Shown here: positions 4,374-17,404 of the stretch, piece by piece
Numbering within the stretch: the stretch's first letter is position 1
How the letters are laid out: each line of letters opens with the position of its first letter
The notes under the pieces: model-generated
Told to the model about the DNA's origin: nothing
The model's input: only the letters and a program-made list of their open reading frames with translations
Databases searched by the model: none
Position numbers and translations under genes: made by a program
NCBI RefSeq assembly: GCF_000013025.1
Contig: NC_008358.1
Span: 1,860,001-1,924,000 of the forward strand
DNA length: 64,000 bases
Direction: 5' to 3'
Source of the DNA: Hyphomonas neptunium ATCC 15444
GTDB lineage: Bacteria > Pseudomonadota > Alphaproteobacteria > Caulobacterales > Hyphomonadaceae

Positions 4374-5981
4374 ATGCCCTCTAAGACTATGCGCGGGGCG
4401 GACATTGATTCCGCTGCATTTCGGCCAGAAGGGCGGGAAATTTTGTTGGATTTGATACGGAAAGCCGTAGAGGCGCCGCGCGCGCGCGCCTGGATTTCGA
4501 TCCCCGAATCCGGCATTCCAGAACTCGTTTCCGTTGGCGCTCAGCCCTCTGGCAATGCCTCTGCCGCGGCCCTTCCTCCTGTCTATCCAGAGTGGTTGGG
4601 TGACCGTGCTTTCGCTGCCGAACACGGCGCCCGTTTCAACTATGTTGCTGGCGAAATGGCCCGTGGAATTGCAACGCCTAAAATGGTTATCGAAGCGGCC
4701 CGCGCCGGCTGTGTCGGCTTCTATGGAAGCGCCGGCCTGCCCCTCGCCGAGATCAAATCAGGCGTAGAGGAAATCAAGGCCGCCCTTGGCCCCGAAGCCC
4801 GAAACTGGGGCGCCAATCTCATCCACTCGCCGCAAGAGCCCGGCCAGGAAAAAGCGGTAATCGACCTCTTCCTGTCCCAGGCCGTCTCAAGAGTGTCAGC
4901 GTCCGCCTTCATGCGCCTCACCGCAGATGTCGTGCGCTATACAGCGCTCGGGCTCACCCGCGCCGCAGACGGCACCATCCAGCGCGCCAACCACATCTTC
5001 GCCAAAGTCTCCCGCGCCGAAGTCGCCGAAGCCTTCATGGCGCCTGCCCCTGAAAAGATCCTGAAAGATCTCGTCGCAGAAGGTGCGATCACCGCGCAGC
5101 AGGCAGACCTAGCCAGCAAGGTGCCCGTTGCAGCCGAAATCACCGCCGAATCGGACTCCGGCGGCCACACGGACAATCGGCCCGCCTCCACCCTCTTCAG
5201 CTCCCTCGCCGCCGCACGCTCTCGGGTCGCCGCCCACAATGGCCACCCGGAAAGCAGCATCCGCATCGGCCTCGCCGGCGGCATCGCCACGCCGCAATCG
5301 GTCGCCGCCGCCTTCCAGATGGGCGCTGCCTATGTCCTGACCGGCTCCATCAATCAAAGCGCCATCGAATCCGGCCTTGCCGCGCCGGGCCGCGCGCTGC
5401 TGGCGAAGGCAGGCCCGGCAGATGTCGCCATGACGCCAGCCGCCGACATGTTCGAACAAGGCGTGCAGGTACAAGTGCTCAAACGCGGCACGCTCTTCGC
5501 CATGCGCGGCAAGAAGTTCCACGCCTTCTATCGCAGCGGCGCCTCTTATGAGACCCTGCCCCCAACGGATCAGAAGTGGATCGACGATGTGCTCGGAGAG
5601 CCGTTCGAGGCTGCCTGGCAGGCAACGCGCGGATACACTCAGAAGGTCCATCCTGCCGAAGCCGCCCGCGCCGACAAAGACGGCAACAAACGCCTGGCCC
5701 TGGTTGCCCGCCGCTATCTGTTCATGGGCGCTCAATGGGCCCGCGAAGGTCATCCGGGCCGCGCAGCCGACTACCAGATCTGGTGCGGCCCCGCGATGGG
5801 CGCGTTCAATGAATGGGTCGCCGGCAGCTTCCTGGAGCCTGTCGAAGCCCGCACCGTTCGCCAGATCGCGCTGAACCTCATGGAAGGCGCCGCGCGCGTC
5901 ACACGGGCAGGCCAGCTGCGATCCATGGGTTTAACGGTGCCCGCCGACCTGTTCTCCTTCCGGCCTGTCGCCTTCGAGTGA
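4374..5981 (+). CDS. pfaD: PfaD-type enoyl reductase of a PUFA/polyketide synthase
   Basis: 535 residues, the normal length for PfaD. This FMN-dependent TIM-barrel enoyl reductase (2-nitropropane-dioxygenase-like) reduces enoyl intermediates on the Pfa synthase. The family signature DSGGHTDNRP is at about residues 259-268, followed by the glycine-rich flavin phosphate-binding segment GLAGGIATPQ near 302. The C-terminal region (YQIWCGPAMGAFNEW) is also typical of PfaD. The ATG at 4374 is used; an ATG 15 bases later is an alternative, and neither has a strong ribosome-binding site. It ends one base before the pfaA ATG, so it is the first gene of the pfa operon. Having the ER gene first resembles the myxobacterial pfa1-pfa2-pfa3 order more than the marine gammaproteobacterial pfaABCDE order. 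Confidence 0.92.
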   Translation: MPSKTMRGADIDSAAFRPEGREILLDLIRKAVEAPRARAWISIPESGIPELVSVGAQPSGNASAAALPPVYPEWLGDRAFAAEHGARFNYVAGEMARGIATPKMVIEAARAGCVGFYGSAGLPLAEIKSGVEEIKAALGPEARNWGANLIHSPQEPGQEKAVIDLFLSQAVSRVSASAFMRLTADVVRYTALGLTRAADGTIQRANHIFAKVSRAEVAEAFMAPAPEKILKDLVAEGAITAQQADLASKVPVAAEITAESDSGGHTDNRPASTLFSSLAAARSRVAAHNGHPESSIRIGLAGGIATPQSVAAAFQMGAAYVLTGSINQSAIESGLAAPGRALLAKAGPADVAMTPAADMFEQGVQVQVLKRGTLFAMRGKKFHAFYRSGASYETLPPTDQKWIDDVLGEPFEAAWQATRGYTQKVHPAEAARADKDGNKRLALVARRYLFMGAQWAREGHPGRAADYQIWCGPAMGAFNEWVAGSFLEPVEARTVRQIALNLMEGAARVTRAGQLRSMGLTVPADLFSFRPVAFE

Positions 5982-5982
5982 A

Positions 5983-8900
5983 ATGATGACCCAGCACCGC
6001 AAGCCCGCCACCTTTGATCCTGCCGCGCCGATAGCGGTTGTCGGCATGGGCGCCATCTTCCCCGGCCGCGGCGACACCACCGGCTTCTGGCGCGACATCT
6101 TCGAAGGCCGCGACCTGCTCAGCGATACGCCGGAAACACACTGGTTGATCGACGACTATTACGATCCGAGCCCCCTCACCCCGGACCGCACCTACGGCCG
6201 TCGCGGCGGCTTCCTCTCCCCCGTCGCCTTTGATCCCATGGCCTTCGGCATCCCTCCCGCCGCGCTCCAGACCACCGACTCCGCTCAACTCCTCGCCCTC
6301 GTCGCCGCCAAGATGACGCTAGACGACGCCGAGCGCGACAGCGGCGGAAAGTTTGATCGTACCCGCACCAGCGTCATCTTGGGCGTCGCCTCCGCCACAG
6401 AGCTAACAGCGCACATGGCCGGCCGCCTCCAGCGCCCGGCCTGGGTCAACGCCCTGCGCCAATCGGGCCTGCCCGAAAACGAAGTTCAGGACATCGCCCG
6501 CCGCATCGAGAGCCACTACGCCGAATGGAAGGAAAGCACCTTCCCCGGCCTCCTCGGCAACGTCGTCGCGGGCCGCATCGCCAACCGGCTGGACCTCGGC
6601 GGCAGCAATTACGTCACCGATGCTGCCTGCGCCTCCAGCCTCTCAGCGCTCCAGATCGCCCTGCACGAACTGCGCGCGGGCGACTCCGACATGGTCCTGA
6701 CCGGGGGCGTCGACGCACTGAACGACATCCTGATGTTCATGTGCTTCTCGAAGACACCGGCCCTCTCGCCCACAGGCGACTGCCGCCCGTTTTCAAATGC
6801 CGCTGACGGCACCATGCTCGGCGAAGGCATCGGCATGATCGCCCTGCGCCGCCTCGATGAAGCCGAGCGCGATGGCAACACCATCCACGCCGTCATTCGC
6901 GGCCTCGGCGGAGGCTCGGACGGCAAGGGCACCGCCATCTACACACCCCTCCCCTCCGGCCAGGCCCGCGCGCTCCGCCGCGCCTATGAACAGGCCGGCT
7001 ACGGACCTGACGCGGTAGACCTCCTCGAAGCCCACGGCACCGGCACCAAAGCGGGCGACCGCGCCGAGATCGAAGGCCTGCATCAGGTCTTCGGCGAGAA
7101 GGCGTCGGAAGAAGGCCCCTGGTGCGCCGTAGGCTCCGTCAAATCCCAGATCGGCCACACCAAAGCCGCCGCAGGCTCTGCCAGCCTCCTCAAAGCGGTG
7201 GAATCCCTGCGCCGCAAAATCCTTCCGCCCACGATCAAGATCGAGGAGCCCGCCGACGCCATCCGCGACAGCGCCTGCTTCTACGTCAACACCGAAGCCC
7301 GCCCCTGGATCAGCGCAGAAGACCGCCCCCGCCGCGCTGCCGTCAGCTCCTTTGGCTTCGGCGGCAGCAACTTCCACGTCACGCTGGAAGAATACACCGG
7401 CCCCGCCGCCGCCAAACCGCCCCGCGTCTTCCCGGCCGAACTCTTCCTCTACAGCGCCAGCGATGCCGCCGCCCTCGCCGAACAACTCAGCACAGCCGCA
7501 GACACCCCGCTCACTGAAGACGCCTTCGCCGCCGCATCTGAAATCACCCTCAAACGCTTCGCCGCGAACGCAACCGTTCGCGCCGCAATCACCGCCACCA
7601 GCCCGGATGATCTCGCTGCAAAGGCCCAGCGCCTTGCCGCTCAGATCACCGATGGCTCCGCCGGCGTCGCGCCCCTCCCGCAAGGCTGCAGTCTCTCCCT
7701 TCATCCCGCCACCCCCGGCAAGATCGCCTTCCTCTTCTCCGGCCAGGGCAGTCAGTATACTGGCATGGGCTCAGATCTGGCGATGGCCTTCCCCGCCGCC
7801 CGCGCCGTCTGGGACAGCGCCGCAAGCCACGCCATCACCGGCGCGCTGAAGCTCCATCGCCTCGCCTTCCCGCCTGCGGCCTTCGATCAGGTCGAGTTCG
7901 GCAACCAGACCAAACGCCTCACCGCGATGGAGAACGCCCAACCCGCCATCGCCGCCGTCGCCCTCTCGCATCTTGCCCTCATCGAGGCCCTCGGCCTTGA
8001 GGCAGATATGGCCGGCGGCCATTCCTTCGGCGAGATCATGGCCCTCCACCATGGCGGCGCTTTCGACACTGAATCCGCACTCACCATCGCCGCTGCGCGC
8101 GGCCGCGCCATGGCCGACGCCGCCGCCTCCAACGAAGGGGCGATGCTCGCCGTTCAATGCGAAGCAGAGGCCATCCGCGCGCTGGTCGATCAGGTCAGCG
8201 GCCGCCTCGTCATCGCAAATGATAACGGCCCCAGCCAGGTTGTCCTCTCCGGCCCGGTCAGCGCGATCCAGAAGGCCGAAGACCTGATCGCCCAGCGCGG
8301 CATCAAAGCCCGCCGCCTTCCGGTCGCCACCGCCTTCCATTCCAGCGTCGTCAGCCCCGCCGTTGATCCGTTCCGGGATATTCTCACCGGCCTGAAGATC
8401 AAGAAGCCCCGCCTCCCGGTTTACGCCAACGCCACCGCCGCGCCCTATAAGGCAAAGGCCGCCGACATGGCGGGCGAAATTGCGGGCCAGGTCGCCACCC
8501 CCGTCCGCTTCCGCGAGGAAGTCGAAGCCATGTACGCCTCCGGCGCGCGCCTCTTCATCGAGATCGGTCCCGGCAATGTCGTCAGCGGCCTCGTCGCCGA
8601 CACCCTGGGCAGCCGGGACTATCTTGCCGTCTCTCTCGATAACAAGCGCACAAATGGCGTGACCCAGTTCCTCTCCGCGCTAGGCACGCTCAGCGTCGCC
8701 GGTATCGCGCTGGACTTCACCGCCCTGCTGGCTGGCACGCCGCCGCCCATCCCTAAGCCTGCCCCGTCTCGCCACGCCGTGATGCTGACCGGCGCCAATC
8801 ACGACCGCCCCTACCCCCCCAAAGACGGCGCTGCAGGACGCGCGCCGCCTAATCCACCACGCACTCACGCTGCGCCCCCGCCTACGCCTCAACCTTCTCC

Positions 8901-9909
8901 CGCCTCCCAGCCTATTGCCGCCGTTTCTCCAGAAAGGATCTCGACGCCCATGCCTGATCTGCCCCGCACGAATGATCCTTCGCCCGCTCAGCCCACAGAA
9001 CAAACCGCCTACGTCGCCCCCTCCGGCGCCGTCGAACGCATCTGGCATGAAGTCTCCCAGCGCCATCAGGATTACCTGCAGGTCACCGCTGCGGCCCATA
9101 CGGCGTACCTGAACGCGGCGGCTTCGCTCCTCGGCGGCGCAACCCTTCCGCCCGCTCAAACATCGTCGCCCCCACCCGCCTTACTACCCCCGCCCCCACG
9201 TCCTGTTGCTGCGCCAGCGCCCACACCTTCGCCTACCGCGCAAGCTGTTCCCACGCAGGCTCCCGCCACACGCGCGGAAGTTAATATCGCGCCCGCCCCG
9301 CCAGCCAGTAAGCCCTACACAAACGGCCACGCCGCCCCGCATACCGCTGCGCCCGCAACGCCCCCAGCAGGCCTCGACCCCATAGCGCTCGTCCGCTCAA
9401 TCATCTCGGAGAAAACCGGCTACCCGGAAGATATGCTCGAAATCGACATGGACCTAGAAGGCGAGCTCGGCGTCGACTCCATCAAGCAGGTCGAAATCCT
9501 CTCCACTTTGCGAGACCGCGTTCCAGAGCTTCCGGAAATCGATCCTGAAAAACTGGTCGAGCTGCGCACAATCGCGGCCATTGCCGCCATGCTCGGCAAC
9601 ACGCCCGCTCCGGCCCTAACGCCAGTCGCGCCGGCAGCCCAGCCGTCTCAAACTCCGGCGCCCTCCCCCGCTTCGGCAAGCGGCGTCTCGTCAGACATCG
9701 TCCGGGCCCTGATCGCCGAGAAAACCGGCTATCCGACAGATATGCTTGAGGATGACATGGACCTCGAAGGCGAACTCGGCGTCGACTCCATCAAACAGGT
9801 CGAAATCCTCTCCGCCCTGCGGGATCGTTACCCCTCCCTGCCGGAAGTTGATCCCGAGCAGATCACCGAGCTGCGTACCATCCGGAAGATCGCCGATTTT
9901 TTTGCCTGA
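5983..9909 (+). CDS. pfaA: PfaA-like synthase: KS-AT-ACP-ACP (KR lies in the -1 frame)
   Basis: 1308 residues in this frame. The ketosynthase (about 14-470) has Cys216 in DAACASS, His351 in EAHGTGT and His392 in GHTKAAAG. The malonyl/acyl transferase (about 580-900) has Ser681 in GHSFG. After a Pro/Ala-rich linker (about 920-1125) come two acyl carrier proteins, each with GVDSIKQVEIL (phosphopantetheine Ser1166 and Ser1269). Typical PfaA proteins carry more ACPs, then a KR and sometimes a DH in one chain. Here the frame stops at 9907-9909, one codon after a seven-T run, and the KR continues in the -1 frame. If the slip occurs, the product is about 1781 residues. Third codon positions are strongly C-biased. 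ACP activation would need a PPTase that is not in this window. Confidence 0.92.
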   Translation: MMTQHRKPATFDPAAPIAVVGMGAIFPGRGDTTGFWRDIFEGRDLLSDTPETHWLIDDYYDPSPLTPDRTYGRRGGFLSPVAFDPMAFGIPPAALQTTDSAQLLALVAAKMTLDDAERDSGGKFDRTRTSVILGVASATELTAHMAGRLQRPAWVNALRQSGLPENEVQDIARRIESHYAEWKESTFPGLLGNVVAGRIANRLDLGGSNYVTDAACASSLSALQIALHELRAGDSDMVLTGGVDALNDILMFMCFSKTPALSPTGDCRPFSNAADGTMLGEGIGMIALRRLDEAERDGNTIHAVIRGLGGGSDGKGTAIYTPLPSGQARALRRAYEQAGYGPDAVDLLEAHGTGTKAGDRAEIEGLHQVFGEKASEEGPWCAVGSVKSQIGHTKAAAGSASLLKAVESLRRKILPPTIKIEEPADAIRDSACFYVNTEARPWISAEDRPRRAAVSSFGFGGSNFHVTLEEYTGPAAAKPPRVFPAELFLYSASDAAALAEQLSTAADTPLTEDAFAAASEITLKRFAANATVRAAITATSPDDLAAKAQRLAAQITDGSAGVAPLPQGCSLSLHPATPGKIAFLFSGQGSQYTGMGSDLAMAFPAARAVWDSAASHAITGALKLHRLAFPPAAFDQVEFGNQTKRLTAMENAQPAIAAVALSHLALIEALGLEADMAGGHSFGEIMALHHGGAFDTESALTIAAARGRAMADAAASNEGAMLAVQCEAEAIRALVDQVSGRLVIANDNGPSQVVLSGPVSAIQKAEDLIAQRGIKARRLPVATAFHSSVVSPAVDPFRDILTGLKIKKPRLPVYANATAAPYKAKAADMAGEIAGQVATPVRFREEVEAMYASGARLFIEIGPGNVVSGLVADTLGSRDYLAVSLDNKRTNGVTQFLSALGTLSVAGIALDFTALLAGTPPPIPKPAPSRHAVMLTGANHDRPYPPKDGAAGRAPPNPPRTHAAPPPTPQPSPASQPIAAVSPERISTPMPDLPRTNDPSPAQPTEQTAYVAPSGAVERIWHEVSQRHQDYLQVTAAAHTAYLNAAASLLGGATLPPAQTSSPPPALLPPPPRPVAAPAPTPSPTAQAVPTQAPATRAEVNIAPAPPASKPYTNGHAAPHTAAPATPPAGLDPIALVRSIISEKTGYPEDMLEIDMDLEGELGVDSIKQVEILSTLRDRVPELPEIDPEKLVELRTIAAIAAMLGNTPAPALTPVAPAAQPSQTPAPSPASASGVSSDIVRALIAEKTGYPTDMLEDDMDLEGELGVDSIKQVEILSALRDRYPSLPEVDPEQITELRTIRKIADFFA

Positions 9910-9929
9910 GGGATGGTGGGCAGGCCCAC
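9897..9929 (+). other. Candidate -1 frameshift site (T7 slippery run plus hairpin) joining pfaA to KR
   Basis: The run TTTTTTT (9897-9903) is phased as T TTT TTT against the pfaA codons GAT TTT TTT GCC TGA, the exact X XXY YYZ arrangement of a canonical -1 slippery heptamer. After a -1 slip the next codon is TGC at 9903, and the frame is open into the KR domain to 11327. A small hairpin, GTGGG (9916-9920) with CCCAC (9925-9929), lies 12 bases downstream. Alternatives are RNA polymerase slippage on T7, a true one-base deletion, or a homopolymer sequencing error. Confidence 0.5.
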
Positions 9930-9983
9930 ACCGCCCCCCGTCCCGCTCCGCCTGAGATAGCAGTTCCGGCATACGGATGTGAC

Positions 9984-11327
9984 GTGCGCGCCGCACGCTG
10001 GGAAGCCGCATTCCCAGCGGCCCCGCAGTCCGTGCGTTTGCCGGTTGAGATAACGAACGCCGAACCCGCATCGGCAGAAGCTCTACAGGCGGGCCTCGCA
10101 GCAGCAGGCATCGAAGCCACGCTGGTTCAATCGCCGAGCGGCGCAGCGGGCACGGTCCTGTTCACCGAAGGCCTGACAGACGCGGCAATGACCGCCCGCC
10201 ACTGGGCCGCGCTCGATGCAACGCGCAAAGCGCACTGTCAGGACGCTGCCCTTATACTCCTTCAACGTATGTCCGCCGATACCGGCCTCGAAGGCCTCGC
10301 CCGCACGCTGCGCCGCGAATGGCCAGACACCTCCGCCCTCTGTTGGACGCTGCTGGACAATGTATCCGGCGACATGCTTGCCCCGTGGCTAGCCCAGCCT
10401 GCCGAAGATCTCTGGATTTCATCTGATGGCACCGCCCGCCGTGCCACGCTTGGTTCCCTGCTGACCCCAACACCCTTGCCTGCCACTCAAGCCGGTCTTT
10501 GGCTCGTCACCGGCGGCGCGCGCGGCGTCACCGCCGCCTGCGCGGTTGAACTCGCGCGCCAGTCCGGCGGCACATTCATTCTCGCCGGCCGCTCCGCCGA
10601 AACACCATGGCCAGAAGGCATTCCGGAAACCACCGACCTCAAAATCCTCCGGGGTCTGATGGCGAGCGCAGCTGTCAAACGGGGCGAAAAACCCTCTCCC
10701 GCCGCAATCGATAAAGCGGCCCGCGCCGCCATCGCGGGCCTCGAAATTCGCTCTACACTGGCGCAGATCAACGCCACAGGCGCGGACGCCCACTACCTTC
10801 CGATGGATACGTCCGACGCCGCCTCCGTCACCGCCGCGCTCTCCACCATCCAACAGCGTTTTGGCCCCATCACCGGCCTCGTCCACGGTGCCGGCGTCTT
10901 GGCAGACCGGCTTGTCGAGGAAAAAACCGAGGCTGAACTGCGCCGCGTCTTCGCCACCAAAGCAGAAGGCCTCTTCCACATCCTCTCAAACATAGACCGC
11001 GCCGCGCTCCGCCATGTGGGTCTCTTCTCCTCTGCCTCCGCCTTCTTCGGCAATCGCGGCCAGTCAGACTACGCCATGGCCAACGCCATCCTCGCCAATG
11101 CCGGCCGCGCCCTCCATGCAGAACTCCCAGGCGCTCAGGTCAAAGTGTTCGACTGGGGCCCCTGGGAAGGCGGCATGGTCGACGCCACCCTCGCCAGCCA
11201 CTTCAAGGAACAAGGCGTGCCGCTCATCCCGCTCAGCGAAGGCGCCCGCATATTCGCCCACGAACTTCTCGCCGGTGATCCCTCCGACGTCGAACTGATC
11301 GTCGGCACTGTCTGGAGCGACGCATGA
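9984..11327 (+). CDS. Ketoreductase (KR) domain of the Pfa synthase, separate or fused by frameshift
   Basis: 447 residues from a GTG. The first part (about 1-165) is the structural half of a PKS KR. The catalytic half has the NADP-binding LVTGGARGVTAA at about 174-185, the ATKAEGL lysine, the SSAS serine region and Tyr363 in GQSDYAMANA. The expected reaction is reduction of beta-ketoacyl-ACP. The frame is open upstream of this GTG back past the pfaA stop; those extra codons encode a Pro-rich linker and then PAYGCDVRAARW, which resembles the start of PKS KR structural domains. No ribosome-binding site precedes the GTG. Translation by frameshift from pfaA is therefore more plausible than independent initiation. 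The stop overlaps the ATG of the next gene (ATGA). Confidence 0.85.
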   Translation: MRAARWEAAFPAAPQSVRLPVEITNAEPASAEALQAGLAAAGIEATLVQSPSGAAGTVLFTEGLTDAAMTARHWAALDATRKAHCQDAALILLQRMSADTGLEGLARTLRREWPDTSALCWTLLDNVSGDMLAPWLAQPAEDLWISSDGTARRATLGSLLTPTPLPATQAGLWLVTGGARGVTAACAVELARQSGGTFILAGRSAETPWPEGIPETTDLKILRGLMASAAVKRGEKPSPAAIDKAARAAIAGLEIRSTLAQINATGADAHYLPMDTSDAASVTAALSTIQQRFGPITGLVHGAGVLADRLVEEKTEAELRRVFATKAEGLFHILSNIDRAALRHVGLFSSASAFFGNRGQSDYAMANAILANAGRALHAELPGAQVKVFDWGPWEGGMVDATLASHFKEQGVPLIPLSEGARIFAHELLAGDPSDVELIVGTVWSDA

Positions 11328-14300
11328 GCCGGTTTGAACCCATCGCCATCGTCGGTGAAGGCTGTGTCCTGCCCGGCGCAAACTCGCCCGATGCCCTCTG
11401 GAATATCGTGGATCAGAAGCGCGTCGTCACGCAGCGTGTCACCCCGGCCCATCTTGGCCTCGCCGATCGCGGCGCAAACAATCCCGCCTGGGTGTCCGGC
11501 CTGATTGACGAGACACCTTCCGATGAGCGCGCCCGCCTCGACCCCGTCTGCCGCTGGCCCCTCACCGCCGTCCTCGACGCTTGGTCTGGCGCCACCACCG
11601 ATCACATCGCCCCAGAACGCCGCGCCGTCATCCTCGCCAACCTTCTCTACCCCAGCCGCGCCAAAGCCACCTACGCCGCCGACATCTGGCGCGATGGCCA
11701 CACGGGCCGTCCCCTCACAGACACCCTAAATTCCGGCTTCCCAGCCAAACACATCGCAGACGCCATCGGCGCCACCGGCCCCGTCCTAGCGCTCGACGCC
11801 GCCTGCGCCTCTTCGCTCTACGCCCTGGAAATCGCCTGCCGCAAACTCGCCGCCGGCCAGATCGACATTGCCGCCGTCGCCGCCGTCAACGCCGCCGACA
11901 ATCTCATCCTCCATATCGGCTTCAGCGCCCTCAAAGCCTTGAGCCCCACCGGCCGCTCGCGCCCCTTCATCGAAGGCGCAGACGGCCTCGTGCCCTCCGA
12001 AGGCGCCGCCGCCGTAATCCTCAAACGCCTCAGCGATGTGAAGAAAGGCGAGACCGTTCACGGCGTCATCCGCGGCATCGGCCTCTCCAATGACGGCCGC
12101 CGCAAAGGCCTCCTCGCGCCCGACGCCACCGGCCAGTCAGAATCCATGCGCCGCGCCTATGCCCAGGCTGACATTGATCCGACCACGATCCAATTCCTGG
12201 AATGCCACGCCACGGGAACCTCCGTCGGCGACAGCGTCGAGATCGCCGCCTCCAGCACCGTCTTCGGCGCCCGTCGCCTCCCCATCGGCTCCCTGAAAGC
12301 CAATACTGGCCACCTGATCACCGTCGCAGGCCTCGCCAGCGTCCTGAAGCTCACCGCCGCCCTGCGCCGCGAAACCCTCCCAGCCATGCCCCTCGACGGC
12401 GCCCTCCTTCCCACGCTCAACAGCAACGGTCTCACCCCTCTCTCCACCCCCGAACCCTGGACACGCGAAGACGCCCCCCGCCGCGCCGCGATCAGCAATT
12501 TCGGCTTCGGCGGCAACAACGCCCACCTCATCCTGGAACAACACGATCCCCGCACAAAATACGTCACCGGCGCCCGCCTGAAAGATATCCCCCCTGACGA
12601 TATCGTCATCTGCGGCATCGGCCTCCTTGCCGGGCCGGATCGGGGTGAACGCGCCGTCCTCCGCCGCCTGATGAACGCCCCGCTCCAGAGCGCGCCCGCC
12701 GCCCAGACCGTCAGCGCCGACCCCATCCGCGCCCGCACGCCCCCCGCCGATCTCCTCCGCGCCGAGCCCCAACAACTCGCCATCTTCGAGACCGCCACTA
12801 TGGCCCTCGAAGGCATCACGCGCCCATCGCCCGAAACCTGCGGCGTCTTCACCGGCACAGGCTGCGCCAATGACAGCGCCCGCTGGCTCCTCCGGGAACG
12901 GATCGCCTCTGAAGGCATTTCTTCGCCAGAAACCCTCAACGCCATCGCCCCGCCGCTCGTCGCCGCCGACGTCCTCGGCGCCATGGCCAACATGACCGCT
13001 AACCGCCTCACTGTTTCCGAAGATTTCCGCGGCAGGGGCTTTGCCATCTCCGCCGAGGAAGCCTCCGGCCTCGCTGCCCTCGACGCCGCCTGCGACGCCC
13101 TGCGCCAGGGCGAGCTGGACCTCGCCATCGTCGCCGCCGCAGACTTCGCCACTGAAACGGTCACCGCCTCGCATACCCCCGCGCCGTCCGCCGACATAGC
13201 CGCCGCCCTCGTCCTCAAACGCCGCAAGGATGCAGAAGCCGCCGGCGATCCCATCCTCGGCACCGTCAGCGCCATCGACTGGGGCGCCCCCGCTGCAACC
13301 GGCGAGAGCCTGACGCAATCCGCCTACGGCAATGCTCCCATCGCCGCCCCTCTCTTCGATCTTGCCACGCGCCTCGCTCTCGCGGCGCGCGGCGTCGCCC
13401 CTGCAGCAGACAAGTCCATTGCCGCCCCTTACCTCGCAGACCCCATTCCCGCCTTCACCGCCGCCGCGCCCACCACCGCAACCTTGCCCGGCATCGCAGC
13501 GACCATCGCGCCTGCGACCGTCCGTCCGTCACCGGACATGCTCCGCCCTACGCCCCATCTCTTCTGGGCCGCCGCCGCCAGCCGCGCCGCCCTCGCCAAA
13601 AAACTGACCACTGGAAAGACGGGCGGCAGCGACAAGCATCGCATCGCCGTTCTCGCGCCGGGCGAAGAAACCCTCCTTGTACAGCAAAAATCCGCCGCCA
13701 CCGCGCTCGCCGCAAACACCGCCCCAGAGGGCGAAGGCATCTTCTATGGCGCCGGCGCTCCAGATGGCGAACTCGCCTTCGCCTTCACAGGCTCCGCCGC
13801 CTCCTACCCCCGCATGGGCCGAGGCCTCCTCGCCGCCTTCCCAGAAGTCGCCGCCGGTCTCGGCAGCATCCCCGCCGCGCAGGCCATGACGCCCCTGCTG
13901 GCCAAAGCGAGCCTCACAGAATTCGAACAACTCTGCGCCGTCAGCCTGCTGACACAGGCCCACACCATCCTCCTGCGCGACGTGCTCGGCCTCTCGCCCA
14001 CCGCCGCCCTCGGCCTCTCGCTCGGCGAAAGCAACGCCCTCTTCGCCTTCGGTTACTGGAAGGATATGGGCGGGCTGCTGGACGATATTTCGGGCGCCGC
14101 TATGTATGAGCGCCATCTCGGCGGAGACTTCGAAACCGCCAAGGAAGCCTGGGGCCCGAACGTCCCCACAGACTGGTCAAACTGGCGCCTGCGCGCGCCC
14201 ATCGCAGATGTCCGCAAGGCCGTGGCCGCCCATCCCAATGTCGAAATCACCATCATCTATTCGGACATTGACTCGATGATTGGCGGGCCAGCGGATGCCT

Positions 14301-17300
14301 GCCGCTCCGTCGCTGACTCCTTGGGCAAGGGCGCTGGCGCGCTGATGCACCAGCACCTGATCGTCCATGCCAGCGCCATGGCGCCCTTCGCGGAAAAATG
14401 GCGGCAGCTCCACACCCGCCCGGTTTCCCGCATCGAAAACGGCCCTCGCCTTTACGCCAATGCCATCAACGCCGCCTACAAGCCCACCAAGGCCAAAGTC
14501 GCCGACATGCTCACCCGGCAGGCCGTCACTACCGTCGATTTCCCTGCCACCGTTCGTCAGGCTTGGGAAGATGGTGTACGGACCTTCGTAGAGGTCGGAC
14601 CCCGCGACTCCCTTACCCAGAGCATCCGCCTCACCCTGAAGGACAAACCCCACCTCGCCATCGCCACAGACGAGATCGAAAGCGGAGACCTCGCCCAGAT
14701 TGCCCGTCTCGCCGCTACGCTCTTTGCCGCTGGCCACTCCATCCGTATAGACACGGTCGCCGCCCGGCTTGATGCCGCGCGCGCGCACCCCTGGGCCGCG
14801 CCCAAACCCGCCACCGTCACCCGCCCGGCAAAATACGAAACCCCCATTGTACCCGCGCGCAACCAGCCGCCCGCGCCGCGCGGCGCCGTCATGTCCCCCG
14901 CCCCGACACTGCCCCCGCCTGTCTACGCGCGCATGACGCCCGCCTCTCCGCCCACAGCGCCGGTCGCTTTCCCGCCTCCGCCGAAGCGTCAGACAGCAAC
15001 AGCCTCTACCCCACCTCAAAGCGCCGTTCCCCCTCCCTCCGGCGTCGTCTCCGCTCGCCAACCGCTCGCCAAGCGCGCCCCCACGGGCAAAGCCTGGGAT
15101 CGCCCCGCCATCGAGGCTGCCTCGCGCGGCCCCATGTCCGCCTTCTTCGGAGACGCTTTCGCCGAACAGGACCAATACGCCCGAAATGTCCGCCTCCCTG
15201 CCCCGCCGCTTCTGCTGGTAGACCGCGTCACGGGCCTCGACGCTGCCCCGCTGGTCGATGGAAAAGGCGTCATCTGGACCGAGACCGACCTCACCGGAGA
15301 TCACTGGATGATGCAGAAAGGCCGCATCCGCCCTGGCCCGCTGATCGAATGCGGTCAGGCAGATCTCACCCTCATCGGCTGGATGGGCGCAGACCTGCAA
15401 AACAGGGATGAGCGGGTCTACCGCCTCCTCGGCTGCGAAATCACCTTCCATGAAGGCGGCCTGCCGGAGGCCGGCGACACGCTGAAATTCCAGATAGAGA
15501 TCACCCAGCACGCCACGTTCGGCGGCGTGCGCATGTTCTTCTTCCAGTATGACTGCGAGACCGTCGGCCGCCGCGCCTTCTCCGTCCGCCAAGGGCAGGC
15601 AGGCTTTTTCACGGATGCCGAACTCGCCTCGGGCAAAGGCGTCGCCTGGGACGCCGCTAGCGAAGCGCCGCCCACGGCAGACCCCGCCCCCATCAACACC
15701 GCCCGCGCCAGCCGCAAACCAGCCTTCTCTGCCGATGATGTCGCCGCCTTCCGCCTGGGCGACGCCTTCGCCTGTTTCGGCGCAGGCTTTGAGCTTTGCG
15801 CCGCGCATTCCTTCCCCGCCCACCTTCCCGGCGGCAAGCTTGCTTTCTTCGACGAGGTCTCCGAGTTTGACCCCGTCGGCGGCCCGTGGAAACGCGGCTA
15901 TCTCAAAGCCCGTGCTAGCGCGCCGAAGGACGCCTGGTTCTACGAAGGCCACTTCCACAACGATCCCTGTATGCCCGGCACATTAATGGCCGAAGCCGCC
16001 GTGCAGGCGCTGGAATTTTACGCCGCCGCCCTTGGCCTGACACAGGAACGCGACGGCTATGTCTTCGAGCCCGTTCCCGGCGAAACCGCCAAATTCATCT
16101 GCCGCGGTCAGGTCATTCCGGATACGGATCACGAGATCACCTACGAAGTCTTCATCGACGAAGTGATCGAGGGCGAAACGCCGAAAGTCTTCGCCGCCCT
16201 TCTGGCGCGCAGTGATGGCAAGAAGGTTTTCTACTGCCCCCGCTTCGGCGTTCAGCTCCGCCGCCAGTGGGCAGAGCCGCGCGTCTCGCCTGCCCCCATC
16301 CGCACCGGCCCGGAACACGAAAGCCGGGGCGATTATGCCGCCCTTCTGGACTGCGCCAATGGCGCGCCCTCCTCCGCCTTCGGAGAAATGTACCAGCGCT
16401 TCGACACCGAAGGCAAAGTCCCCCGCTTGCCCCAGCCGCCCTATCACATGATGTCCCGCGTGGTGGCCGCCACAGACCGTCCCGGCGTGCGCCGCGCCGG
16501 CGCCACCATCTCGGCCGAATACGACATCCCGCCCGACGCCTGGTATTTCGTAGACAACCGGAACGGCGAGATGCCCTTCTCGGTCCTCTCTGAAATCGCG
16601 CTCCAACCCTGTGGCTGGCTCGCCAGCCATTGCGGCTTTGCGCTGGATGGCGGCGACCGCTTCCGCAACCTCGAAGGTGATGGCCGCGTCTACCGAGCCC
16701 TTGGTCCGCGCGACGGCACGATCTGCGTCGACACCACGCTCTCCTCCTTCTCCAAGGTCGGCCCGATGACCATCGTGGCATTCGATCTGAAAGGACGCCT
16801 CAAATCCGGCGAGCCGGTCATCGACCTCTCGACCCGCTTTGGCTTCTTCCCCGCCCAGGCCCTTGTCCGCCAGGCTGGTCTTGGCGCGGGTCAGTTGGAC
16901 AAGTCTTGGCTAGAACTTCCGGGCAGCGACCACGACCTAACCCCCCGCGATCCCCGCCTCGCCGCCGGCCAGCTCCGCATGCTCGACCGCGTGGACTATT
17001 TCGACCCCGAAGGCGGCAAAGCCAGCCTCGGCCTCGCCCGCGCCAGACAGGTCATCGACCCCTACGCCTGGTATTTCAAAGCCCACTTCTTCGGCGATCC
17101 TGTCCAGCCTGGCTCCCTCGGCCTTGATGCCATGGTCCAGCTCCTCACCCGCGCCAGCCTCCTCAAAGGCCTCGCGGCGGAAAACGCCCATATCGAAACC
17201 CTCGCCGCCGACATGCCGGTGAAGTGGTCCTATCGCGGCCAGGTCACGCCGGAGAAGAAGCAGGTCACCACCGTTATGGAGATCATCGAAGTATCCGGAG

Positions 17301-17404
17301 ACACCCGCCGCCGCATCGTGACCGGCCGGGGCTCGCTCTGGTGCGATGGTCTGCGCATCTATGAGGCCAGCCCCATCTCCGTCGCCTTTACTTCAGACGG
17401 GTAA
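11324..17404 (+). CDS. pfaC: PfaC-like giant synthase: KS-CLF-AT-DH-DH
   Basis: 2026 residues. KS (about 5-420) has Cys161 in DAACASS, His295 in ECHATGT and His330 in NTGHL. A chain-length-factor-like KS (about 425-690) has lost the nucleophile: the Cys position falls in SAEEASGLAAL. An AT (about 830-1150) has Ser899 in GLSLGES and resembles PfaB. A Pro-rich linker (about 1185-1265) leads to two FabA-like double-hotdog dehydratases, with His1543 in EGHFHNDPCMPG and His1921 in KAHFFGDPVQPG. The two other hotdog halves retain the fold but not both catalytic residues. Marine PfaC is KS-CLF-DH-DH with AT in PfaB; here AT is fused in the middle, as in myxobacterial Pfa3, but no C-terminal acyltransferase (AGPAT) follows. 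It overlaps the KR stop by 4 bases, so it belongs to the same operon. Confidence 0.92.
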   Translation: MSRFEPIAIVGEGCVLPGANSPDALWNIVDQKRVVTQRVTPAHLGLADRGANNPAWVSGLIDETPSDERARLDPVCRWPLTAVLDAWSGATTDHIAPERRAVILANLLYPSRAKATYAADIWRDGHTGRPLTDTLNSGFPAKHIADAIGATGPVLALDAACASSLYALEIACRKLAAGQIDIAAVAAVNAADNLILHIGFSALKALSPTGRSRPFIEGADGLVPSEGAAAVILKRLSDVKKGETVHGVIRGIGLSNDGRRKGLLAPDATGQSESMRRAYAQADIDPTTIQFLECHATGTSVGDSVEIAASSTVFGARRLPIGSLKANTGHLITVAGLASVLKLTAALRRETLPAMPLDGALLPTLNSNGLTPLSTPEPWTREDAPRRAAISNFGFGGNNAHLILEQHDPRTKYVTGARLKDIPPDDIVICGIGLLAGPDRGERAVLRRLMNAPLQSAPAAQTVSADPIRARTPPADLLRAEPQQLAIFETATMALEGITRPSPETCGVFTGTGCANDSARWLLRERIASEGISSPETLNAIAPPLVAADVLGAMANMTANRLTVSEDFRGRGFAISAEEASGLAALDAACDALRQGELDLAIVAAADFATETVTASHTPAPSADIAAALVLKRRKDAEAAGDPILGTVSAIDWGAPAATGESLTQSAYGNAPIAAPLFDLATRLALAARGVAPAADKSIAAPYLADPIPAFTAAAPTTATLPGIAATIAPATVRPSPDMLRPTPHLFWAAAASRAALAKKLTTGKTGGSDKHRIAVLAPGEETLLVQQKSAATALAANTAPEGEGIFYGAGAPDGELAFAFTGSAASYPRMGRGLLAAFPEVAAGLGSIPAAQAMTPLLAKASLTEFEQLCAVSLLTQAHTILLRDVLGLSPTAALGLSLGESNALFAFGYWKDMGGLLDDISGAAMYERHLGGDFETAKEAWGPNVPTDWSNWRLRAPIADVRKAVAAHPNVEITIIYSDIDSMIGGPADACRSVADSLGKGAGALMHQHLIVHASAMAPFAEKWRQLHTRPVSRIENGPRLYANAINAAYKPTKAKVADMLTRQAVTTVDFPATVRQAWEDGVRTFVEVGPRDSLTQSIRLTLKDKPHLAIATDEIESGDLAQIARLAATLFAAGHSIRIDTVAARLDAARAHPWAAPKPATVTRPAKYETPIVPARNQPPAPRGAVMSPAPTLPPPVYARMTPASPPTAPVAFPPPPKRQTATASTPPQSAVPPPSGVVSARQPLAKRAPTGKAWDRPAIEAASRGPMSAFFGDAFAEQDQYARNVRLPAPPLLLVDRVTGLDAAPLVDGKGVIWTETDLTGDHWMMQKGRIRPGPLIECGQADLTLIGWMGADLQNRDERVYRLLGCEITFHEGGLPEAGDTLKFQIEITQHATFGGVRMFFFQYDCETVGRRAFSVRQGQAGFFTDAELASGKGVAWDAASEAPPTADPAPINTARASRKPAFSADDVAAFRLGDAFACFGAGFELCAAHSFPAHLPGGKLAFFDEVSEFDPVGGPWKRGYLKARASAPKDAWFYEGHFHNDPCMPGTLMAEAAVQALEFYAAALGLTQERDGYVFEPVPGETAKFICRGQVIPDTDHEITYEVFIDEVIEGETPKVFAALLARSDGKKVFYCPRFGVQLRRQWAEPRVSPAPIRTGPEHESRGDYAALLDCANGAPSSAFGEMYQRFDTEGKVPRLPQPPYHMMSRVVAATDRPGVRRAGATISAEYDIPPDAWYFVDNRNGEMPFSVLSEIALQPCGWLASHCGFALDGGDRFRNLEGDGRVYRALGPRDGTICVDTTLSSFSKVGPMTIVAFDLKGRLKSGEPVIDLSTRFGFFPAQALVRQAGLGAGQLDKSWLELPGSDHDLTPRDPRLAAGQLRMLDRVDYFDPEGGKASLGLARARQVIDPYAWYFKAHFFGDPVQPGSLGLDAMVQLLTRASLLKGLAAENAHIETLAADMPVKWSYRGQVTPEKKQVTTVMEIIEVSGDTRRRIVTGRGSLWCDGLRIYEASPISVAFTSDG

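Follow-up and report, generated by a model that had tools for sequence, protein, structure and literature searches.

A -1 slip at a heptamer within one gene allows E. coli dnaX to specify two chains of unequal length that share their N-terminus, and the signal includes a Shine-Dalgarno (SD) element at a set spacing. Signals for -1 frameshifting feature a stimulatory RNA structure a few nucleotides 3' of the heptamer, and subunit pairs made by frameshifting are known for few bacterial housekeeping genes. Here we describe a comparable junction in pfaA, a polyunsaturated fatty acid (PUFA) synthase gene of Hyphomonas neptunium ATCC 15444 (Hyphomonadaceae). The gene resides in a stretch of 64,000 nucleotides (NC_008358.1, positions 1,860,001 to 1,924,000, forward strand), the whole of which is called the window, in a genome of 3,705,021 bases on one contig. 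Hyphomonas pfaA is very probably one gene read in two frames through a -1 programmed frameshift, and would specify PfaA chains with and without a ketoreductase (KR).

dnaX is among the best-known cases of frameshifting, the short chain being made by recoding in E. coli and the long chain in other bacteria, as Antonov et al. 2013 (PMC3711429) set out. As in the window, the longer subunit needs recoding in the dnaX genes described there as two open reading frames (ORFs). Those genes carry poly-A runs, and slippage of the transcribing polymerase is the mechanism preferred in that study (in Thermus dnaX it takes place at nine As), whereas the window features T TTT TTY followed by a stem-loop. E. 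coli dnaX is another gene with another function, and its slip makes the short chain, whereas the slip in Hyphomonas pfaA would make the long one.

PfaA proteins (TIGR02813) have the order ketosynthase (KS), acyltransferase (AT), acyl carrier protein (ACP), KR. The order is the same in the window, which differs from the fused relatives examined in having the KR in the -1 frame rather than in the same frame, and has two ACPs. Among secondary lipid synthases, a KR apart from KS-AT-ACP5 marks type D, and a split pfaA type H, in the sections of Shulse and Allen 2011 (PMC3098273) dealing with these types; they are presented there as split genes, and the comparison with the window is by description only. 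The word "frameshift" is absent from the portions considered of PMC3098273, PMC4882568 (a 2016 review) and PMC13291983 (a 2026 survey). The first 300,000 of the 475,107 characters of a recoding review (PMC5009743) contain neither "polyketide" nor "acyl carrier", and the sole polyketide entry in the main text of PMC3711429 is a cyclase, in the translational-coupling row. Among the literature matches listed, none was recognised as dealing with frameshifting in PfaA, PUFA synthases or polyketide synthases; PfaA could be among the 146 recoding clusters listed in the supplement of PMC3711429.

The pfaA junction in the window

The 0 frame ends with the codons GAT TTT TTT GCC TGA, and the T7 run (9897-9903) is phased T TTT TTT, an X XXY YYZ heptamer in the 0 frame. 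Run and phase are as read in the preliminary description, which proposed that a -1 slip at this point completes pfaA. The KR lies in the -1 frame, also as proposed. This frame had been taken as open from 9903 to 11327; the end is correct, and the frame is already open from 9852, the preceding stop being at 9849-9851. Slippage would join 1307 to 474 residues, and the KR-plus product would measure 1781 residues, the size that had been foreseen. Conserved protein is coded on both sides of the junction: scored separately, the 0-frame part reaches 994.9 bits and the KR part 276.8 bits with TIGR02813 (the cut-off, 1010.1, applies to the whole protein), and the two parts match the model in co-linear order.

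T7 runs are not rare, since 2 are found in the window versus 4.7 expected. E. coli genes contain UUUUUUU less often than expected, whichever of the three frames is read, in the part of PMC4066793 considered. One other in-frame X XXY YYZ heptamer, CCCCCCC at 8814, is found in the 0-frame ORF. The strength of the case for the T7 run as a putative slip site is its conservation across loci, at the same place and in the same phase.

In the proposed mechanism, a stem-loop 6 nt downstream would hold ribosomes at T TTT TTT, and a fraction of them would slip back one base, tRNA-Phe re-pairing on UUU in both sites. Ribosomes that do not slip would stop one codon on and release KS-AT-ACP-ACP (1308 aa), those that slip would enter the KR and make KS-AT-ACP-ACP-KR (1781 aa). 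In coding capacity the locus resembles dnaX, as the two products share the N-terminus and the short one ends just past the slip site. Because the whole N-terminal part is common to both chains, a likely use would be the formation of mixed KS-dimers with a set KR:ACP ratio (compare dnaX tau/gamma). Slippage itself, its rate and the purpose of the KR-less chain are what we infer from the features described here.

Conservation in Hyphomonadaceae

Genomes of the family (105) were searched, a KR match of E 1e-30 or better being counted as KR present. The KR was found in 57: 40 of the genus of the window, 14 of genus g15, and 3 of genus g21. Two junctions, those of G098 (= L117, cut) and G015, were not readable, the contig beginning too near or inside the KR. 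The 55 readable family junctions and L045, from a metagenome-assembled genome (MAG) labelled Granulosicoccus, make 56 distinct loci. The heptamer and stem of L045 are of the Hyphomonadaceae type, either by gene transfer or by a binning error. The junction of G071 (genus g15) is identical to that of the Henriciella pelagia locus L047.

Conservation of the run and its phase in relatives had been named beforehand as a check, and both are kept in all 56 loci. The heptamer is T TTT TTT in 38 and T TTT TTC in 18, and always ends 3 nt before the stop. The 0-frame stop one codon past the heptamer is invariably present, as TGA (21 loci), TAG (20) or TAA (15), and 55 loci have the KR in -1. The codon before the heptamer ends in T in all (GAT in 54, GGT and AAT in one each). 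The conserved Ts do not reflect a codon habit, since in the same upstream stretches TTT makes 90 of the 363 Phe codons, and GAT 549 of the 1374 Asp codons. KR identity to the window falls to about 39-43% among these loci, which indicates that the T-type site has lasted. In a FastTree phylogeny of 199 KR rows, T-type KR proteins form one clade of 55 rows with an SH-like support of 96.

A stem-loop downstream of the heptamer

A hairpin had been placed downstream of the run in the preliminary description. It is present, at dimensions other than the 5 bp and 12 bases given: in the window an interrupted 13 bp stem (9910-9944; -23.5 kcal/mol, z -2.2) begins 6 nt after the run. When 40-nt segments were folded across the 56 loci, the mean z was -3.26 at offset 0 and -2.95 at offset 3 nt from the stop, with a mean of -24 kcal/mol, whereas the remaining offsets sampled between -150 and +150 gave values between -0.86 and +0.48.

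Covariation was measured in the 33 aligned loci which share the commonest stem spacing. Changes on both sides were found in 9 of the 13 stem pairs; the fourth outer pair is A-U in 14 loci, G-C in 13, G-U in 6, and unpaired in none. The covariation score is 0.325, versus 0.195 in shuffled alignments (0/500 as high) and at most 0.217 with slid partners; the shuffle test is inflated by related rows, and the slid-partner control is safer. Inner pairs are less regular, the worst being unpaired in 17 of the 33 loci, and RNAalifold alone predicts only the 6 outer pairs. The outer stem is lost in one locus (L020), and the fold of another (L003) is different yet stable. A covarying structure is thus found 6 nt downstream of the heptamer, at the spacing of -1 frameshift signals.

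Alternative explanations

The long frame might be produced by transcriptional slippage, RNA polymerase adding a U on the T run so that some mRNAs carry it and no ribosome slips. This is the best surviving alternative, and even so is very improbable. A homopolymer does lie at the junction, and the A9-A11 runs found in the SAR324 class and in Paenibacillaceae (see below) match the length at which Thermus dnaX slips (nine As, main text of PMC3711429). In T-type loci, runs are T7 (38 loci) or T6 followed by C (18 loci), and never longer; homopolymers of about 8 or more, as expected for transcriptional realignment, occur only in the A-type loci of other bacteria. T6C retains the ribosomal heptamer and should presumably slip polymerase poorly, and the stem-loop lies at ribosomal spacing.

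Heptamer and stem could also be kept for another reason, as termination or mRNA stability, the KR being reached only by rare background slippage. The chances of this are somewhat smaller still, as 57 of the 105 family genomes have retained an open KR frame, which needs expression, and other phyla have different slippery sites at the same junction.

Two translationally coupled genes, with the KR re-initiating at an internal start, either the GTG at 9984 or a non-standard one, provide a third explanation, which we regard as having a slender chance. Some loci do have suitable starts. Of the 56 loci, only at the L003 junction does an ATG overlap the stop (ATGA), GTG is found at +11 in L115 and L118, and, among C CCA AAA loci of actinomycetes, GTG overlaps the stop in L205 and L209 and ATG lies at +11 in L206 and L207. 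Split pfaA genes have also been reported for types D and H, in the sections of PMC3098273 cited above. A clean KR start with a ribosome-binding site in relatives, which would have spoken for this explanation, is not the rule. Measured from the stop, the first ATG, GTG or TTG of the KR frame falls anywhere between -1 and +317 nt in the 56 loci, and an SD-like tetramer precedes it in 2 only. L026 and L134 have no ATG, GTG or TTG in the first 109 and 105 KR-frame codons, respectively; there 10 and 8 conserved columns precede the first start, and the stem encodes two of them (R-P). In the window, the best SD duplex of GTG 9984 measures -3.8 kcal/mol, in keeping with the remark that no ribosome-binding site precedes it; since the pfaA and pfaD starts also score weakly (-2.5 and -4.1 kcal/mol), the measure is soft and alone proves little in this operon. 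Coupled genes would moreover leave the heptamer and the stem-loop unexplained.

Several observations weigh against frameshifting. The R-P residues following the shift are encoded by the 3' arm of the stem, and their conservation hence does not by itself prove translation. In 34 of 55 loci a start is first possible at KR codons 16-31, ahead of most conserved columns, so that lost KR sequence cannot exclude internal initiation there; for those 34 loci the missing SD, the heptamer and the stem carry the case, and lost protein does not. The ATG of L003 makes re-initiation possible at this locus, which also has an extra 0-frame stop 858 nt upstream. In L020 (= L040, Hyphomonas L-53-1-40) the heptamer is kept, and an indel breaks the 3' arm of the stem and places the KR in frame 0 behind the stop. 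Finally, the loci are related, and counts are not independent events. The indel of L020/L040 may reflect decay, another type of recoding, or a sequence error.

That the split is an error of sequencing or assembly, or a pseudogene left by a recent frameshift mutation, has next to no chance and is refuted for Hyphomonadaceae by conservation: homopolymer errors are common, and a clear one-base difference is seen elsewhere (Persicobacter L235 versus L238), but 55 other loci have the same heptamer, none of the 55 family junctions is a fused gene, three different stop codons occur at one place, and stem changes are compensatory. The frameshift interpretation of pfaA in the preliminary description is supported at the level of sequence.

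The ACP-KR junction in other bacteria

Altogether 239 loci (L002-L240), many of which duplicate one genome, were sorted into 110 fused, 68 T-type, 26 A-type, 15 C CCA AAA, 11 cut, 2 without ACP, and 7 others. Of the latter, 4 have a stop followed by the KR in frame 0, 2 are split without a nearby heptamer, and 1 has G GGA AAG. The putative frameshift device is not universal, many relatives being plainly fused. Among 385 Alphaproteobacteria searched (E 1e-35), 6 have the KR, and the four outside Hyphomonas are fused.

In 12 distinct actinomycete loci the junction has C CCA AAA and the KR lies in the -1 frame; TGA follows one codon on in 11 of them. The heptamer codons are uncommon in these stretches (CCA 32 of 902 Pro codons, AAA 11 of 167 Lys codons). 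An SD-like sequence upstream of the heptamer (anti-SD duplex of -9 kcal/mol or better) is present in 12 of 13 C-type versus 8 of 28 fused loci, and 2 of these 8 fused relatives carry the C CCA AAA heptamer themselves. In Streptomyces, where 55 of 295 genomes have the KR, 30 loci were read; 26 are fused and one is C-type, the query's own. One Streptomyces locus (L149), with a +1 shift and no nearby heptamer, was left uncounted. The Kutzneria family has the KR in 46 of 200 genomes, and its 30 loci divide into 7 C-type split, 22 fused and 1 cut; 5 of the fused loci carry the inverted site described in the next section.

Junction runs of 9 to 11 As mark 24 loci of the SAR324 class (within L168-L196) and of Paenibacillaceae. 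The KR is present in 30 of 52 SAR324-class genomes, and 30 loci gave 22 split (A9-A11, KR in -1), 5 fused, 2 cut, and 1 odd. In Paenibacillaceae only 2 of 104 genomes have the KR (L198, L199), and both are split, at A9-A10. Sequence cannot separate ribosomal from transcriptional slippage at A9-A11 splits. The odd locus, L180/L063, comes from a SAR324 single-cell genome; it has an A10 run and a stop like its relatives and the KR in frame 0 far downstream, and was not counted. No stem-loop was found downstream of the C CCA AAA and poly-A sites (mean z -0.14 and -0.62 at the site).

In the KR tree, A-type and C-type rows are interspersed with fused ones, and at least 3 and at least 2 changes, respectively, are forced by starred branches; many branches are long, which makes any number of origins read from the tree provisional. 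G GGA AAG, found near the ACP-KR split of Persicobacter psychrovividus (L235), was rejected as a further type, as its congener L238 is fused with the same heptamer and L235 differs by one downstream base. Both Persicobacter loci are on plasmids.

Putative inverted designs in Shewanella and actinomycetes

C CCA AAA occurs in frame in 10 of the 110 fused loci. Three are gammaproteobacterial (L048, L073, L102), with the heptamer outside the linker and a -1 stop after 23, 4 and 42 codons. Seven are actinomycete loci from six genomes (L050/L208, of one genome, L052, L211, L212, L216, L220); the KR is in frame, the heptamer always resides in the ACP-KR linker, and a -1 stop follows 3-4 codons from the heptamer start. 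The background of such a -1 stop in these actinomycete genes is 230 of 6045 codons (3.8%). Among fused SAR324-class loci with an A run, 3 of 4 have a -1 stop within 4 codons, a weak signal as the background is 26%. Linker poly-A heptamers were also noticed in two fused loci, a Desulfobacula MAG (L077; -1 stops after 3-9 codons) and Legionella brunensis (L057; after 2 codons); these are single loci, possibly due to chance.

The KR is present in 124 of 152 Shewanellaceae genomes, and 70 were read, the 30 best matches and 40 chosen down the list. A AAA AAG, which is the E. coli dnaX heptamer (main text of PMC3711429), is found at the ACP-KR linker in 67 of the 70: all 30 best matches, and 37 of the others, 36 of the 40 as LKK and L297 as VKK. 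L310, L312 and L313 lack it. In all but one of these 67 a -1 stop is reached at codon 3 or 7 (66 loci), the exception being L276 with codon 25; the background is high, with a -1 stop within 7 codons at 34% of positions, and 29% of Leu codons end in A. In 27 loci, the sequence immediately 5' of the first site shows an SD-like peak (mean -8.2 kcal/mol). This peak and the heptamer correspond to parts of the E. coli dnaX signal. Folding downstream of the site is, in the mean, weak (z -1.27).

A second A AAA AAG is found after the KR in 26 of 30 loci (L244-L273), about 1.0-1.2 kb past the start of the KR match. The preceding residue is L, V, A or S, the codon always ends in A, and a -1 stop is at codon 3 in all 26. 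At 40 other x-Lys-Lys places of the same stretches the heptamer was never found. The second site points to a further dnaX-like shift, by which three chains could be made. Shewanella and some actinomycetes would thus have an inverted arrangement, in which the 0 frame is KR-plus and the -1 frame KR-minus, and a slip would drop the KR.

Functional implications

All designs appear to have in common that both KR-plus and KR-minus PfaA can be made, and the inverted ones are the best clue to a function. As both polarities give both chains, in parallel to dnaX, dual products, and not the repair of a broken gene, are taken as the likely function. The preliminary description had suggested that slippage sets subunit ratios; the inverted designs found elsewhere strengthen this idea, the ratio itself staying conjectural. 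The KR-minus chain might supply extra ACP/KS capacity, or enter mixed dimers with one KR.

A broader interpretation, which we hold to be likely though with less assurance than the frameshift in Hyphomonas, is that -1 frameshifting at the ACP-KR junction has evolved repeatedly in bacterial PUFA-type synthases and sets the ratio of KR-plus to KR-minus chains, through slippery sites of four kinds and in two contrary arrangements (a slip adds the KR or drops it), with up to three chains in Shewanella. Mixed dimers with a defined share of KR would be the working enzyme, and could time keto reduction in the building of the polyene. Several lineages would then apply a dnaX-like logic to a large biosynthetic enzyme; that the slippery sites differ between them and that both polarities occur speaks for selection keeping the KR-less chain as a product. 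If so, codon-optimised pfaA genes used in heterologous expression of eicosapentaenoic and docosahexaenoic acid synthases may have silently lost one subunit, and annotations listing the KR as a gene of its own would misstate its start and how many products there are. The manner in which an iterative PUFA synthase chooses reductions in each cycle would become testable through one heptamer.

The pfa locus of the window

The features of the locus are listed in Table 1. pfaD, the KS-AT-ACP-ACP frame, the KR frame and the PfaC/PfaBC-like gene are consecutive on one strand, and the ATG of the latter overlaps the KR stop (ATGA). The neighbouring pfaD, above the TIGR02814 cut-off, and the PfaC/PfaBC-like gene fit a PfaA context.

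Table 1. Features of the pfa locus, in window coordinates.
Feature	Position	Strand	Remarks
pfaD (enoyl reductase)	4374..5981	+	immediately 5' of pfaA; TIGR02814 533.8 bits, cut-off 449.25
0-frame ORF, PfaA short form KS-AT-ACP-ACP, 1308 aa	5983..9909	+	Pfam matches to KS, AT and two PP-binding stretches
Slippery heptamer T TTT TTT, 0 frame, proposed -1 slip site	9897..9903	+	kept in 56/56 distinct loci, T TTT TTT in 38 and T TTT TTC in 18
0-frame stop TGA, one codon past heptamer, would close KR-less product	9907..9909	+	56/56, TGA/TAG/TAA
Proposed frameshift-stimulating stem-loop	9910..9944	+	outer stem 9910-9916 with 9938-9944; 6 nt 3' of heptamer
-1-frame extension, linker and KR, 474 aa	9903..11327	+	PF08659 E 3.5e-31; TIGR02813 positions 1911-2268
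GTG, first ATG/GTG/TTG of KR frame, judged not the KR start	9984..9986	+	position unconserved, no good SD
PfaC/PfaBC-like subunit	11324..17404	+	ketosynthase domains; two FabA-like stretches; AT-like stretch under Pfam cut-off

Domain searches of the window KR frame recognised nothing C-terminal of the KR, and a sequence search of the PDB returned KR and FabG-like relatives only. A second T7, followed by GCG TGA, is found in the same genome at 2861481-2861495 (L243), in a pattern search allowing 2 mismatches.

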